Shown here piece by piece: positions 6,582 through 40,534 of a stretch of 64,000 bases of DNA (the stretch's first letter is position 1; every line of letters begins with the position of its first letter). The notes below the pieces were generated by a model that was not told the origin of the DNA, searched no databases, and saw only the letters and a list, made by a program, of their open reading frames with translations. The stretch comes from Amycolatopsis alba DSM 44262. GTDB taxonomy: Bacteria; Actinomycetota; Actinomycetes; Mycobacteriales; Pseudonocardiaceae. Made by a program: the position numbers and the translations under genes. The DNA lies in the NCBI RefSeq assembly GCF_000384215.1, contig NZ_KB913032.1:3737665-3801664 (forward strand). Direction: 5' to 3'.

Positions 6582-7183
6582 GACTAACTTCTCCTGTTTC
6601 TCGGCCGCCGGGAACGGTTCGACCCGTTCCTGGCGTGTCGTGCTGACGCACGGCAGTCTCTGGTGTCTCCTACCAACGTGTGGCCTCGTCACGTCGAGCG
6701 ACGACAACGTGGGCACGCGAAACGCCCCCGCTGTATACGGGAGACCTTACGAGGGTACGCACCCACCGCTCGGACCCGGCAGGCACCCCCTCGGCCACGT
6801 ACCGCGACGGTACGGGGAGAGTGATCACCGACGACGCGAGGGCATCGAATGGCAACGCGCCGTACACCGTGAAATGCTTGCGCGCGAGGACGCCTTGTGG
6901 CAGCGAGCGGGGCTTGTTAGCCTGCCCCTCCCGCGTTTTCGCCGAGGTGGAACGGTGCAGGCGCACGGGTGTCCTTGGGGATGTAGAGGCGTCCCGTCGG
7001 CATACGTCGATCCCGCAGGTGGCGTCATCGCGGGCCGCCGTACATTAGTGCACAGCTGTGGACAACTATGTGGATATTCGCTGTGCGCACGAGCCGATCT
7101 GGCCATGATGACGCTCGACCCGGCGTTTCGGCCGCTGAGTGATCTCACCGCACGCACCGAACGAGGGGAGGGGAGTCAGGCAG
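6582..7183. promoter_or_regulatory. rpmH-dnaA divergent intergenic region
   Basis: About 600 bp without a convincing gene separates the divergent rpmH and dnaA. It must hold promoters for both. A perfect DnaA box is at 7057-7065 and a weaker copy follows at about 7068. I could not assign -35/-10 pairs with confidence. Short open frames here have no plausible codon pattern. Confidence 0.7.
7057..7065 (-). promoter_or_regulatory. DnaA box upstream of dnaA
   Basis: TGTGGACAA is the reverse complement of TTGTCCACA. It lies about 120 bp before the dnaA start, as expected for DnaA autoregulation. A TATGTGGATA sequence just after it may be a second, weaker box. Confidence 0.75.
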
Positions 7184-8815
7184 GTGTCCGATCACCAGCA
7201 CAATCTTGGCGTCATCTGGGAACAGGTCGTGCGCGAGCTGTCCGATGGCACCCTCTCCCCGCAGCAGCGCGCCTGGATGCGGGTGACCCGGCCGATCGGC
7301 CTGCTCGATGGCACCGCTCTTCTCGCCGCTCCCAGCGACTTCGCCAAGGAAGCGATCGAACGCGCACTCCGCGGCGCGATCACCGAAGCCCTTTCGCGCC
7401 GGCTCGGCCGCGCGGTCTCCCTCGCGGTGAAGGTCGACAGCACCGAGACGCACACCTCGATGCCGCCTCCCGTGCCGGGTCCTCGCTATGACTCGTCACC
7501 CGGTCGGGTGGAAAACGGTTCCGGCCCGGTGCCGGGTACTCCTCCGCTGCCCGACGGTGACGGCATGCTGTCCCCGACCAGGCCCCGGCCCGAGCCTCCG
7601 AAGCCGAGGCCGCCGCGGCAGCAGCCGGTGGACAACAGCCTGAACGACGGCGATGACAGTGACGAAGAAGTCGACGAAGAGGGCGAGGCTCTCGCCGCGG
7701 TGACCGAGATCTGGCCCACGTTCTCCGGCCAGCCGATCGCGGGCCAGCCCTACACGGCGCCGGCTCAGCCGCAGACGTCGAAGACGAAGCTCAACGAGAA
7801 GTACACGTTCGACACCTTCGTCATCGGTGCGTCGAACCGCTTCGCGCACGCGGCCGCGGTCGCCGTCGCCGAAGCACCGGCGCGCGCGTACAACCCGCTG
7901 TTCATCTGGGGAGAGTCCGGACTCGGGAAGACCCACCTGCTGCACGCCGTCGGGCACTACGCCCAGCGGCTGTTCCCCGGCATGCGCGTGCGGTACGTGT
8001 CGACCGAAGAGTTCACCAACGACTTCATCAACTCGCTGCGGGACGACCGCAAGGTCGCGTTCCAGCGCCGCTACCGCGACATCGACATCCTGCTCGTCGA
8101 CGACATCCAGTTCCTGGAAGGCAAAGAAGGTACGCAGGAAGAGTTCTTCCACACCTTCAACACCCTCCACAACGCGAACAAGCAGATCGTCGTCTCCTCC
8201 GACCGCCCGCCGAAGCGCCTCGAAACGCTGGAAGACCGGCTGCGGACCCGGTTCGAGTGGGGCCTCATCACCGACATCCAGCCGCCCGAGCTCGAAACGC
8301 GGATCGCGATCCTCCGCAAGAAGGCGGCACAGGACAGGCTCGCGGTGCCGAACGAGGTGCTGGAGTTCATCGCTTCGCGCGTCGAAGCGAACATCCGGGA
8401 ACTCGAAGGCGCGCTCATCCGCGTCACCGCCTTCGCGTCGCTGAACCAGCAACCGGTCGACGTCGCTCTCGCCGAGATCGTGCTTCGGGACCTCATCCCG
8501 GATTCGCACGCTCCGGAGATCACCGCGCCGACCATCATGGGCGTCACGTCCGAGTTCTTCGACGTGACCCTCGACGACCTCTGCGGGCCCGGTAAGACGA
8601 AAGCGCTCGCGACCGCACGTCAGATCGCGATGTACCTCTGCCGCGAACTGACCGACATGTCACTGCCGAAGATCGGGCAGACCTTCGGCGGCCGCGACCA
8701 CACGACGGTCATGCACGCGGACAAGAAGATCCGCAAGGAGATGGCCGAACGAAGGCGCATCTACGACCAGGTTCAGGAACTGACCTCACGCATCAAACAG
8801 CGAGCCAGGCAGTAG
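7184..8815 (+). CDS. dnaA: Chromosomal replication initiator protein DnaA
   Basis: A 543-residue replication initiator. Domain I is at the N-terminus ([21 protein letters not shown]); a long acidic/proline linker (domain II, about residues 90-190) is typical of actinobacteria. The AAA+ domain III has Walker [13 protein letters not shown] near 240 and Walker [16 protein letters not shown] near 300. Domain IV ends with the DnaA signature [15 protein letters not shown]. The GTG start at 7184 follows a purine-rich GGGGAGGGGAG tract and gives the conserved [17 protein letters not shown] longer frame from 7139 lacks conservation logic. DnaA boxes upstream suggest autoregulation. Confidence 0.98.
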
Positions 8816-8822
8816 TTTCTTA

Positions 8823-8981
8823 TCTCGCGCTGACGGAAACGTGCCGAAGGGGCGTCGTTCCGCTTTCAACTCGGGTTGGGAGCGGAGGGCGCCCCTTCAT
8901 CACGTTTCCGTGGGCCTTCGGCCCGAAAGAGGGCGCTCGACGGTGAAGTCTCCGTCGGGCGCGGAGCGCCCTTGGGGAGAC
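8823..8981 (+). repeat. Structured dispersed element, copy 1 (3' flank of dnaA)
   Basis: One of three copies of a roughly 158-bp intergenic element. It begins 8 bp after the dnaA stop. The paired arms are GGAAACGTG with CACGTTTCC, AAGGGGCG with CGCCCCTT, a GGGCCTTCGGCCC hairpin, GGGCGC with GCGCCC, and GTCTCC with GGAGAC. The outer stem (TCTCGCGC against GCGCTCGA) has two mismatches in this copy but is perfect in the other two. No start codon with a convincing reading frame is present. See the covariation finding. Confidence 0.85.
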
Positions 8982-9026
8982 CCTGGGGTCACCAGGCATC
9001 AATCCTTTGGCGCGCAAGGGTTTCAG

Positions 9027-9053
9027 GGGCTCTCACCGTCCAGGTGGGAGCCC
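9027..9053 (+). terminator. Hairpin terminator downstream of dnaA
   Basis: An 11-bp stem, GGGCTCTCACC with GGTGGGAGCCC (one T-G wobble) and a five-base loop, followed by TTCGTCGTG. It probably ends dnaA transcription before oriC. The poly-T tract is poor, as usual in high-GC actinomycetes. Confidence 0.6.
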
Positions 9054-9128
9054 TTCGTCGTGTCTACATAGGTCCGAAGCGTCGGTAGGGCCGCGGAGGA
9101 CTGGGTACCTGGGGAGAAGCAGCGAAGG

Positions 9129-9167
9129 GCGCGAAGGAAGCGAAGTACGTGTAAGCGGCCTTCGCGC
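9129..9167 (+). terminator. Second hairpin bordering oriC
   Basis: A perfect 9-bp stem, GCGCGAAGG with CCTTCGCGC, around a 21-base loop and followed by TTTTCC. It could be a backup terminator that insulates oriC from dnaA transcription. Confidence 0.5.
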
Positions 9168-9169
9168 TT

Positions 9170-9660
9170 TTCCTTGTGTACAAAGGGAATCCACATGCTG
9201 TGGGTATCTTGTGCACAACTCGGCCAGGCGGGAGACCAGCGGCGATCCGGTTTCCGTCCACATCGCACTCACAGGCAATCCACAGCATTTCCACACCATG
9301 ATCCACATGCTGTCCCCAGGTTGCCCACATGTTGTGCACAAGGGTGACCCAAGCAGCTCGGATCACTCTCCCGAGCGATTCCGGTCACGAACCGGGCCCA
9401 CAGCCCCTGGGTACAAACCGGCTCAAGACTGGGGATAACTGTGGGGACAACTGTGGATGACTGTGGACAAATCGAGGGTCGCCCGAAACCATCCACGGAC
9501 GGCCCGAGCTGTCCACCGTCCGTACACACCCTGGGTCCACAGCCTCCGAGCCGTCCGGACCTGCGCGAACGAGGCTTGTCCACACAATCCACAACGCCTA
9601 TTACTACTGCTGTTCTTAGTTCTTCTTAAGAAGGGAATAAAACAAAAACAGGCGGAGGAC
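9170..9660. other. oriC: Chromosomal replication origin oriC
   Basis: The dnaA-dnaN intergenic region carries a dense set of DnaA boxes. Exact consensus copies are TTGTCCACA at 9576-9584 and its complement TGTGGACAA at 9462-9470. Many close variants occur: TTGTGCACA (twice), TTGCCCACA, CCGTCCACA, TGATCCACA, GGGTCCACA and CAATCCACA (9585-9593, abutting the consensus box). They lie in both orientations over about 400 bp, with an AT-rich stretch at the dnaN side. This matches the organisation known for Streptomyces and Mycobacterium oriC. Box strength and the exact functional borders are inferred. Confidence 0.92.
9598..9652. other. AT-rich stretch, candidate DNA-unwinding element
   Basis: A run rich in A/T (TTACTACTGC, TTCTTAGTTCTTCTTAAG, AATAAAACAAAAACA) that stands out sharply in this very GC-rich sequence. 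It begins immediately after the paired boxes at 9576-9593, the expected geometry for DnaA-driven melting. This is inferred from composition and position. Confidence 0.75.
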
Positions 9661-9903
9661 GAATCTGGGGACAGCCGTCGAGCCGTGTCGTCTTGTCGAC
9701 AAAAGCAAGGGGAGGCCGAGGTGACGCGGACCCCGGGGACGGCCTAACGTGGGTCCCTGCACCTGGTCTGCGTGTCGACGTGCGTTCGCGTCCTCGCACG
9801 GACCGAACGAACCTGCGAGGCACCTGGCCATCGCGCTCTCCGGCCGAGGTGACCCGTTGAGCTTTCGAGCCGTCAGGGGCTCGGCTGTCGAAAGGAAGCG
9901 CGC

Positions 9904-32625: not shown

Positions 32626-32632
32626 TTTTTTT

Positions 32633-32790
32633 GATCGCGCTGACGTAAAGCGCGCCGAAGGGGCGTCGACCCGCTTTCCACTCACGTGGGCGGGGAGGCG
32701 CCCCTTCATCGCGTTTACGTGGGCCTTCGGCCCAAAAGAGGGCGCGATCGGTGAAGTCTCGCCGTCGCGCTGGCGCGCTTTCGGCGAGAC
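32633..32790 (+). repeat. Structured dispersed element, copy 2
   Basis: The second copy of the three-copy element, starting 8 bp after the DUF6918-like stop. The outer stem GATCGCGC/GCGCGATC is perfect here, and the 3' stem is GTCTCGCCG with CGGCGAGAC (9 bp). The central arms are AAGGGGCG/CGCCCCTT and CGCG-TTTAC/GTAAA-CGCG with one bulged base, plus the invariant GGGCCTTCGGCCC hairpin. Confidence 0.85.
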
Positions 32791-32847
32791 AGTCCGCCGG
32801 TGCTGTTGTTGGGCGCGTTGATCTTCGGCAACGAACGACCTCGGTAC

Positions 32848-39212: not shown

Positions 39213-39367
39213 TGTACGGCTGGATCTGGCGCAAGCTGCCAGGCCCCTTCGCGGTGAAGCTGGCGACGGCGGTCGTGCTGGCGCTCGGGATCGTCGCCCT
39301 GCTGATGTTCGTCGTCTTCCCGTGGCTGGAGCCGCGGCTGTGGTTCAACGAAGTGAGCGTCCAGTGA
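39212..39367 (+). CDS. Small membrane protein coupled to sortase
   Basis: A 51-residue protein, mainly one transmembrane helix (KLATAVVLALGIVALLMFVVFPWLEP), starting within the TGATG overlap with the sortase stop. Similar short single-pass proteins follow class E sortase genes in other actinomycetes. A role as sortase partner is inference; the coupling itself is clear. A structured repeat starts 7 bp after the stop. Confidence 0.75.
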   Translation: MYGWIWRKLPGPFAVKLATAVVLALGIVALLMFVVFPWLEPRLWFNEVSVQ

Positions 39368-39373
39368 TGTCTG

Positions 39374-39529
39374 TCGAGCGCTGACGGAAACTCGCCGAAG
39401 GGGCGCCGGGTCGCTTGCAACTCGCGTTGCGCGCGGAGACGCCCCTTCATCGAGTTTCCGTGGCCTTCGGCCGAAAGAGGGCGCTCGACGGTGAAGTCTC
39501 CGTCGGGCGCTGAGCGCCCTTTGGGAGAC
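39374..39529 (+). repeat. Structured dispersed element, copy 3
   Basis: The third copy. Every helix is perfect: outer stem TCGAGCGC/GCGCTCGA, GGAAACTCG/CGAGTTTCC, AAGGGGCG-containing arm, GGCCTTCGGCC, GACGG/CCGTC (competing with the outer stem), GGGCGC/GCGCCC and GTCTCC/GGAGAC. The last arm GGAGAC lies 3 bp before the GTG of the next gene, so it is also that gene's Shine-Dalgarno. Confidence 0.88.
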
Positions 39530-39532
39530 CTT

Positions 39533-40534
39533 GTGGCTGAGTTCGAGTTGCGCCCAGTAATCCCGCGGTTCGGCGTCTTCCTGGTCTCCGGGCGGTTTCC
39601 CGGCCAGGAGGACGCCGATGTCCTGCGCCGGTCGGTCGACGCCGCGATCGCCGCCGAACGGGCCGGATTCGACGACGTCTGGTTCGCCGAGCACCACTTC
39701 ATGCCCTATGGCGTCTGCCCGTCCGCGATCACCCTCGCCGCGCACGTGCTCGGCCGCACCGAGCGGATCACGGTCGGCACGGCGGTGAGCGTGCTGTCGG
39801 TCGCGCATCCGGTGGCGCTCGCCGAGCAGTGGGCGCTGCTCGACGCGGTTTCCGGCGGACGGCTGCGGATCGGCGTCGGCCGCGGCGGGCCATGGCAGGA
39901 CCTCGAGGTGTTCGGCACCGGGGCGGCCCGCTACGGGACGGGGTTCGAGGAGAGTCTCGATCTGTTGCTCGCGGCGATGACGTCGGAGACCGTCTCGGCC
40001 GACGGTGCCCACTTCGCGTTCCGTGAAGTGCCGATGGTGCCGCGGCCGGAACGCGCCCCGCGCCTGGTCGTGGCCTGCGGGGACGCCGGATCGAGTTCGG
40101 TCCGGCTCGCCGCCGAGCGCGGGCTGCCGATGCTGCTCGGCCTGCACACCGACGACGACGGCAAGATCGAAACCCTTGCCGCGTACGGGGATTCCGCCGC
40201 TGGACATGTCTCGACGGTGATGTGCCAGGTGGGAGACGACGCGCTGGACGTCGTGCGGTCCGCGTTGCCGGGCTCCCTCAAGGAAGGGTTCGCCGGGCAC
40301 GTGTACCTCGACGGCAGGCGCGGGCTCGAAAAAGATCCGGTGTCCTACACCGATCGGCTCTGCGAGATGCATCCGATCGGCGGCGTGCAGTACTGCGTCG
40401 ACAGGCTGGGAACAAGCCTCCGGCGCACCGGGGTCTCCCACGTGATCATGATGGTGGAAGCGTCCGGTACGCCGGAGGGAACGCTCGAGAACATCGCGCG
40501 GATCGGGGAAGAGGTACTACCCGCGCTGCGCTGA
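39533..40534 (+). CDS. LLM class flavin-dependent oxidoreductase
   Basis: A 333-residue luciferase-like monooxygenase (TIM-barrel, F420- or FMN-dependent). The family pattern VDAAIAAERAGFDDVWFAEHHF is at about residues 30-51 and SGGRLRIGVGRGGPWQDLEVFG near 100. The GTG at 39533 is chosen because GGAGA lies 4-5 bases upstream; upstream in-frame codons would fall inside the structured repeat. The physiological substrate is unknown. Confidence 0.88.
   Translation: MAEFELRPVIPRFGVFLVSGRFPGQEDADVLRRSVDAAIAAERAGFDDVWFAEHHFMPYGVCPSAITLAAHVLGRTERITVGTAVSVLSVAHPVALAEQWALLDAVSGGRLRIGVGRGGPWQDLEVFGTGAARYGTGFEESLDLLLAAMTSETVSADGAHFAFREVPMVPRPERAPRLVVACGDAGSSSVRLAAERGLPMLLGLHTDDDGKIETLAAYGDSAAGHVSTVMCQVGDDALDVVRSALPGSLKEGFAGHVYLDGRRGLEKDPVSYTDRLCEMHPIGGVQYCVDRLGTSLRRTGVSHVIMMVEASGTPEGTLENIARIGEEVLPALR

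Follow-up and report, generated by a model that had tools for sequence, protein, structure and literature searches.

The question raised by this locus is whether a repeat in the genome of Amycolatopsis alba DSM 44262 is a structured RNA or a piece of mobile DNA. The repeat occurs three times in the window, the stretch of 64,000 nucleotides (nt) of contig NZ_KB913032.1 that was analysed as a whole, and copy 3 is the finding under study. A first-pass annotation of this DNA had offered both answers, "structured RNA or mobile palindromic element". The mobile half is borne out by empty sites, three target duplications, and a dispersed, lineage-restricted range; the half that invokes RNA selection is not. 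We read the repeat as a non-autonomous, interspersed, nested-palindrome element of the Amycolatopsis orientalis group that is placed at gene 3' ends and whose arms are partly renewed by template switching, and give this reading a probability of roughly 0.72.

The core of the repeat is ~160 nt. An outer stem encloses a long hairpin and a small GGGCCTTCGGCCC hairpin. The long hairpin is interrupted by a 2x2 internal loop and varies in its apical part (often CAAC..GTTG). After the outer stem, the linker GGTGAA leads to a 3' hairpin, GTCTCC...GGAGAC. By eye, a leader like CTGTGTYTATCTG is found before many copies, and the copy tail is CGTTGGGTCACC. Three intact copies with readable ends are inserts of 151-183 nt.

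The repeat was inserted as DNA at sites that are empty in close relatives. At the copy-3 site, nine of the 12 close relatives are empty and their flanks are directly joined (...GCGTCCAGTAGACGCGCGG... and variants). The site is filled in the own genome and in three relatives, two of which carry internally deleted copies and one a copy of another subtype. Filled sites end with a second GCGTCCAGTA, exact in L079 and diverged in the others. Because the tail is common to all four filled genomes, they probably share one insertion. Measured against the empty site, the insert is longer than the ~158 bp at 39374..39529 first assigned to it and extends from about 39367 to 39549, or 183 bases.

Two further sites show the same type of event. 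The dnaA site, which holds copy 1, is filled in 7/12 relatives and empty in 5/12, giving 8/13 filled genomes with the own one. Its target is CCAGGCAGTA, and the right duplicate retains CCAGGCA in the own genome and GGCAGTA in L048. At L013, a perfect 10-bp CCAGTAGCTT is present on both sides of the repeat; 11 of 12 relatives are empty at this site and have the sequence once, with some base differences. The inserts between the duplicates measure 151 (L013), 183 (copy 3), and 177 (copy 1) bases, and that of L013 has neither leader nor tail, i.e., the ends vary. Presence/absence polymorphism at orthologous sites, a mark of interspersed repeats, is therefore found here, and target duplications of 9-10 bp are observed at these three sites, not as a general rule. 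Loss is also seen, as L325, L086, and L079 resemble deletions inside the element, and such truncated copies show loss of the repeat by internal deletion.

The repeat is dispersed within a single lineage. BLAST found 17 matches in the own genome. From 35 copies a covariance model was made, and 150 of 9074 first-look candidates in the own genome were scored with it. This gave 21 matches: 14 strong non-overlapping copies, five that are the reversed palindrome over known copies, and two weak ones. Further copies in related genomes, which the first-pass annotation had asked for, were found in one Amycolatopsis group. In all, 101 full copies were collected from 47 site clusters in 14 Amycolatopsis genomes, a subset, with some copies of some genomes unfetched. 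Matches were found in 14 of 60 relatives. Of these, 13 are among the 36 genomes of the genus, a count that takes in the own genome; the other lies outside the genus and is a 34-nt match, not a copy. Order-wide, under stricter filters that lose weak matches, 8/298 genomes and 1/76 genera were positive, with no match in the 75 other genera sampled. An exact 30-base pattern was sought in 84,980 species, with one genome each, a collection that may omit the window's own record; it gave 25 stretches, all in seven Amycolatopsis genomes (orientalis, thailandensis, azurea, oliviviridis, decaplanina, roodepoortensis, and sp. WAC 01376). No match was obtained in plasmid and phage collections with blastn, or in IMG/VR with the exact pattern. 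Within the own genome, 13 of the 14 strong copies are located within 2.7 Mb around dnaA on a chromosome of 9.81 Mb, a clustering that may reflect a core-gene region or replication.

The earlier statement that the layout belongs to no named family holds for Rfam. At gathering scores, Rfam 15 identified just three tRNAs over the window, and at a permissive threshold around copy 1 the best E value was 0.31, far under the gathering score of that family. Among the open-access matches listed, no title or abstract opening dealt with such a repeat in Amycolatopsis. Many dispersed non-coding copies, strong dyad symmetry, and confinement to one lineage, the features of a small interspersed palindromic repeat, are all present. 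We class the repeat as a new family of small interspersed repeats, known to date from the A. orientalis group alone.

Members of this family are mostly located at gene 3' ends, and mostly in the direction of the gene. With an adjacency rule that takes open frames of at least 90 codons and applies a third-position G+C cut-off, a same-strand frame ends between -33 and +16 nt from the repeat start at 33/47 sites (77/101 copies). An antisense-side stop codon adjoins 14/47 sites, nine of which have stop codons on both sides, leaving 24 sense-only and five antisense-only sites. The stop codon is inside the repeat at 13/47 sites; in 12 it is the TGA of GCTGAC or a variant, and in one it is a TAA further in. 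In two genes that we take, from their protein ends, to be purQ and clpB, the final codons are not the same as in relatives lacking the element, as though the gene had received its new end with the insertion. The P value from a positional null of 0.023 was left unused, as that null came from an incomplete gene call (44 genes).

Loci without the element often end in another palindrome. In 83/141 element-free loci, the gene end is followed by an inverted repeat of 12 bp or more, compared with 0/141 coding stretches, and such repeats are seen at 10 of the 13 sites examined. At the L009 site, the repeat overlies apparent terminator remains, and at the L003 site, the palindrome of the relatives is still present behind the repeat.

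A second palindrome family, with the core GTCCTCTGRATGCGG, was observed in genomes of the group. A pattern for this core, with which one palindrome can yield two matches, gave 23, 123, 15, 7, and 319 matches in five genomes of the group (G000, G008, G020, G018, and G015) and 0 in three genomes outside it. The 319 matches in one genome suggest a large amplification. In relatives, this family occupies the same post-stop position as the Amycolatopsis repeat, e.g., at L208-L213. Further sequence is found between the stop codon and some copies of the repeat: a short hairpin (e.g., TCGCGCGCAGCGCGA) in L123, L234, L241, and L245, and a 5'-arm fragment in L021, L110, L138, L140, and L187. Both look like remains of an older element.

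Several observations weigh against a mobile gene-end element and are collected here. Nine of the 47 sites have no called stop codon beside them, and five adjoin one on the antisense side only. The copy-3 site is counted among the nine, its frame failing the third-position G+C cut-off; by eye, a stop codon is found 6 nt before the outer stem. At three of the 13 sites examined for other palindromes (L013, L126, and L045), none is present in any element-free locus. No autonomous relative is known, the search being a 3'-hairpin pattern in four genomes, in which the five exact matches in the own genome were known copies. At sites 25 and 39, element-free relatives already end the gene with the 5' arm of the repeat, and genomes outside the group do not; here, remnants of old insertions and pre-existing targets are indistinguishable.

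The ends of the inserts belong to the same list and bear on a related explanation, that the repeat is a miniature inverted-repeat transposable element (MITE) of a DDE-transposase insertion sequence with decayed terminal inverted repeats. The 9-10 bp duplications at copy 3, dnaA, and L013 are what such an element would leave. The four inserts with readable ends, however, have no terminal inverted repeats: their ends agree at 4-7 of 20 positions, and the longest common word, 4-5 bases, is equalled by more than half of 1000 shuffles. The variable ends, as in L013, also speak against a MITE. No general duplication signal emerges over the 101 copies, since flanking direct repeats of at least 7 bases occur in 19/101 compared with 14% of mismatched pairs, and clean site 14 (L126/L222) has no target duplication. 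We consider a MITE origin quite improbable.

The identities between copies place the insertions in the past. Copies at the same site have a mean identity of 0.878, and copies at different sites 0.751 within and 0.744 between genomes. For 52/75 copies, the most similar copy is one from the same site, and the maximum identity between copies at different sites is 95.1%. With no near-identical cross-site pair, recent movement is not demonstrated, a further point against mobility. Because same-site copies are most alike and no cross-site pair exceeds 0.951, the copies are old insertions that were later inherited, lost, or exchanged. The same identities favor a stronger form of this view, in which the repeat is no longer mobile and its patchy presence stems from the inheritance and deletion of old dispersed copies and from their exchange between species through homologous recombination. 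On the two-gene tree of 13 genomes, filled dnaA and copy-3 sites are indeed scattered. Set against this, 26/47 site clusters have a copy in one sampled genome alone, a count that rests on a partial fetch of copies. We hold this alternative to be a serious possibility, at less than even odds. Concerted evolution within genomes was considered and rejected, the difference being small (0.0068, with 26/500 permutations as large).

The covariation on which the first-pass annotation relied is genuine, and pairing is kept. All three window copies fold better than dinucleotide shuffles, with z-scores of -6.98 (copy 1), -8.49 (copy 2), and -5.66 (copy 3) and 0/200 shuffles folding as well as the native sequence for each. 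In the MAFFT alignment of 35 copies, 95.1% of cells pair, and 19/54 pairs have changes on both sides; the covariation score is 0.132, whereas shuffles give 0.058 (0/500 reach the observed score) and the best slid version gives 0.043. In an alignment of 100 copies, which was made with the covariance model and hence is biased towards it, 94.8% of cells pair, 37/53 pairs have both-side changes, and the score is 0.202 compared with 0.068 for shuffles and at most 0.046 for slid versions. The compensatory helix changes claimed earlier thus stand above shuffled and slid controls. The step from there to selection on the fold is not established, given that G.U pairs are not more common than A.C in the long hairpin and that some arms look copied in multi-base steps.

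A functional structured RNA would be a three-way-junction fold, in the 3' untranslated region or intergenic, that is selected and has been copied to many genes, where it would serve as a module for regulation or termination. Beyond the covariation across helices, this explanation could account for the strong conservation of the unpaired linkers GGTGAA and AAAGA and of an internal-loop A, the sense orientation behind genes, and a junction pair that is U-G on the sense strand in 97/100 copies. Selection on a sense RNA is doubted because G.U is not commoner than A.C in the long hairpin, where the sense strand has G.U in 4 and A.C in 34 cells of the model alignment (A3) and 2 and 3 cells of the 35-copy MAFFT alignment (A2). 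In the other helices the difference is not significant; the apical helices lean towards G.U, with 44 compared with 28 site-events (P 0.08). Orthologous sites without copies in close relatives, some arms rewritten by multi-base steps, and the lack of an Rfam match also argue against this explanation, and we judge it unlikely. An antisense RNA was also considered for the A.C excess. The excess is found in the model alignment (30 vs. 4 site-events, P 6e-6) and not in the MAFFT alignment (3 vs. 2 cells in 35 copies), and third codon positions of two neighbouring genes show more G>A than C>T; this reading was dropped.

Some of the arms suggest a DNA process. Outer stems are perfect in 83/100 copies. 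The two main types, TCGCGCGC (perfect match in 41/42 copies) and TCGAGCGC (25/25), differ by a double transversion. Among rarer 5' arms 17/33 are perfect, and arm correction is therefore incomplete. L012 contains its own 5' arm as an inverted copy within the loop. In L130 (site 39), the end of the host gene forms the 5' arm GGGCGCAGCTGA, and the 3' arm GCTGCGCC matches it; this gene end is also present in the element-free group relatives L209, L211, and L342, and is absent from the six genomes that were read from outside the group. The 3' arms of L045 and L047 likewise fit their unusual 5' arms. The arms of L012, L130, L045, and L047 look like arm copying by DNA template switching. According to Monttinen and Loytynoja 2022 (PMC8794818), compensatory changes of several bases in stems can result when replication of the DNA switches template, a process that can also create and maintain RNA hairpins. 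The likeness lies in compensatory stem changes that arise as a DNA event; that source describes them for RNA genes, and here they are proposed for a dispersed palindromic repeat. The paired changes resemble the outcome of palindrome repair in DNA no less than that of RNA selection; selection on the fold is not needed to explain the kept pairing but may contribute to it.

Known interspersed repeats share some of these properties. Mycobacterial interspersed repetitive units (MIRUs) can insert on the stop-codon side of a gene, and an internal short ORF coupled to a neighbouring gene is one of their features. The bcr1 repeat of the Bacillus cereus group is about 155 bp long and has a conserved RNA-like fold. 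Repetitive extragenic palindromes (REPs) and bacterial interspersed mosaic elements (BIMEs) are often found just behind genes, and REPs have a GTAG tag at one end. Integron attC sites, which likewise follow stop codons, were considered as well. MIRUs are likewise actinobacterial, small, apparently mobile, and located at gene borders; PMC12548453 describes their insertion at start codons. Gene-border insertion in the sense orientation, typical of MIRUs, is what the 33/47 sites of the Amycolatopsis repeat show; it differs in being a nested palindrome that contains the stop codon of the preceding gene at 13/47 sites. The bcr1 repeat is also lineage-restricted with mobile-element features, at 11-130 copies per genome, and TTTAT motifs are linked to how bcr elements move (PMC6542083), whereas the Amycolatopsis repeat has 9-10 bp duplications where seen and stop-codon placement.

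REPs and BIMEs, for which PMC3733652 gives a hypothesised role in termination or mRNA stability, raise the possibility of movement by a REP-associated tyrosine transposase (RAYT), an IS200/IS605-like Y1 transposase. The Amycolatopsis repeat is also palindromic, extragenic, and just past stop codons, and its target duplications are not general. It is, however, much longer, and its layout is unlike REPs of 20-40 bp (PMC3733652). The Y1 transposase (PF01797) was found in 0/25 genomes, 13 of them with the repeat, while controls were positive in 5/14. RAYT-type mobilisation is ruled against by this absence, and we consider a REP/BIME-type origin extremely improbable. The Y1 transposase is the one transposase family searched and no mover is known, which also counts against a mobile element.

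For the non-autonomous gene-end element that we favor, the following course is proposed. The repeat would spread by DNA insertion at gene ends, for which insertion and placement are both observed. Its mover may be an enzyme encoded elsewhere, an enzyme since lost, or replication-based copying. The repeat is probably tolerated at gene ends because it equips the mRNA with a stop codon and with strong hairpins at its end, and may stand in for the palindromes found at the same position in many relatives. It would then persist as a neutral or useful 3' end with a putative terminator role. Its arms may stay complementary in good part through template switching that re-copies one arm from the other, as the examples above suggest, and RNA-hairpin selection may or may not add to this.

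A bolder version is that the repeat is a selfish palindromic element with the stop codon as its niche. Such an element would land on the last codons of a gene and supply the stop codon and 3' hairpins, with a 3' arm tailored by template switching to the host-coded 5' arm, and would in this way draw coding sequence of the host into its stem. It would be one of several mutually replacing palindrome families at gene ends, in effect exchangeable mobile terminators. We put this version forward as doubtful. If the gene-end specialisation is true, core genes, among them dnaA, can have their stop codons and 3' ends rewritten by mobile DNA, and the turnover of gene ends is testable across sister species. 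Strong covariation, usually taken as proof of a selected RNA fold, here goes with mobile DNA and signs of palindrome repair, and the case thus bears on covariation-based RNA discovery in GC-rich genomes.

Positions of the window copies and of the parts of copy 3; core ends of copies 1-3 were set by the covariance model
Feature	Position in window	Strand	Details
Copy 1	8821..8982	+	covariance model R1, 182 bits; core starts 5 nt past dnaA stop codon, in dnaA-dnaN spacer
Copy 2	32631..32791	+	covariance model R1, 152 bits; core starts 5 nt past stop codon of DUF6918 gene
Copy 3, structured core (finding under study)	39372..39530	+	covariance model R1 match 1-161, 167 bits; fold z -5.66
Copy 3, whole insert (leader, core, 3' tail)	39367..39549	+	183 bases vs. 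empty site; flanks directly joined in 9/12 close relatives
Copy 3, target duplication left	39357..39366	+	GCGTCCAGTG (GCGTCCAGTA in L079); one copy in empty sites; relative L079 has exact GCGTCCAGTA at both ends of the insert
Copy 3, target duplication right	39550..39559	+	GCGCCCAGTA
Copy 3, outer stem 5' arm	39374..39381	+	TCGAGCGC, then conserved TGAC; pairs with 39481-39488; helix 97.6% paired (100 copies)
Copy 3, outer stem 3' arm	39481..39488	+	GCGCTCGA; pairing in 100 copies
Copy 3, long hairpin 5' arm	39384..39405	+	ACGGAAACTCG-CC-GAAGGGGCG; 20 model pairs, 17 changed on both sides (100 copies)
Copy 3, long hairpin 3' arm	39440..39461	+	CGCCCCTTC-AT-CGAGTTTCCGT; pairing in 100 copies
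Copy 3, small hairpin	39462..39472	+	GGCCTTCGGCC; helix 99.8% paired (100 copies)
Copy 3, 3' hairpin	39496..39529	+	GTCTCC...GGGCGC...GCGCCC...GGAGAC; helices 99.2% and 89.7% paired (100 copies)

The three window copies that had been claimed are present, all on the + strand, and the quoted motifs and arms are found in the sequence. GGCCTTCGGCC has exactly three mismatch-free occurrences in the window, at 8913, 32722, and 39462, and AAGGGGCG has six, which form three inverted pairs. The helix arms quoted for copies 1-3 are present, with the reservation that copy 1 is mismatched at two positions of its outer stem (5' TCTCGCGC vs. 3' GCGCTCGA). The core had been called invariant, which is not so family-wide, as one subtype has GCAGGGCGC/GCGCCCTGC where others have GAAGGGGCG/CGCCCCTTC.

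Pfam identifies the genes that flank copy 1 as dnaA (7139-8815) and dnaN, and the one before copy 2 as a DUF6918 gene. Upstream of copy 3 are a sortase-domain gene and then a short open reading frame (ORF) read from the sequence; downstream is a luciferase-like monooxygenase gene. The tail of copy 3 brings a GTG (39533; region 39533-39559) in frame with the ORF of this monooxygenase, and the insertion may be the source of a new start codon for it. The dnaA-dnaN spacer is presumably the usual origin region of actinomycetes. DnaA-box-like TTGTGNACAA occurs at 9174, 9209, and 9332 in the region 8816-9903, which holds copy 1.
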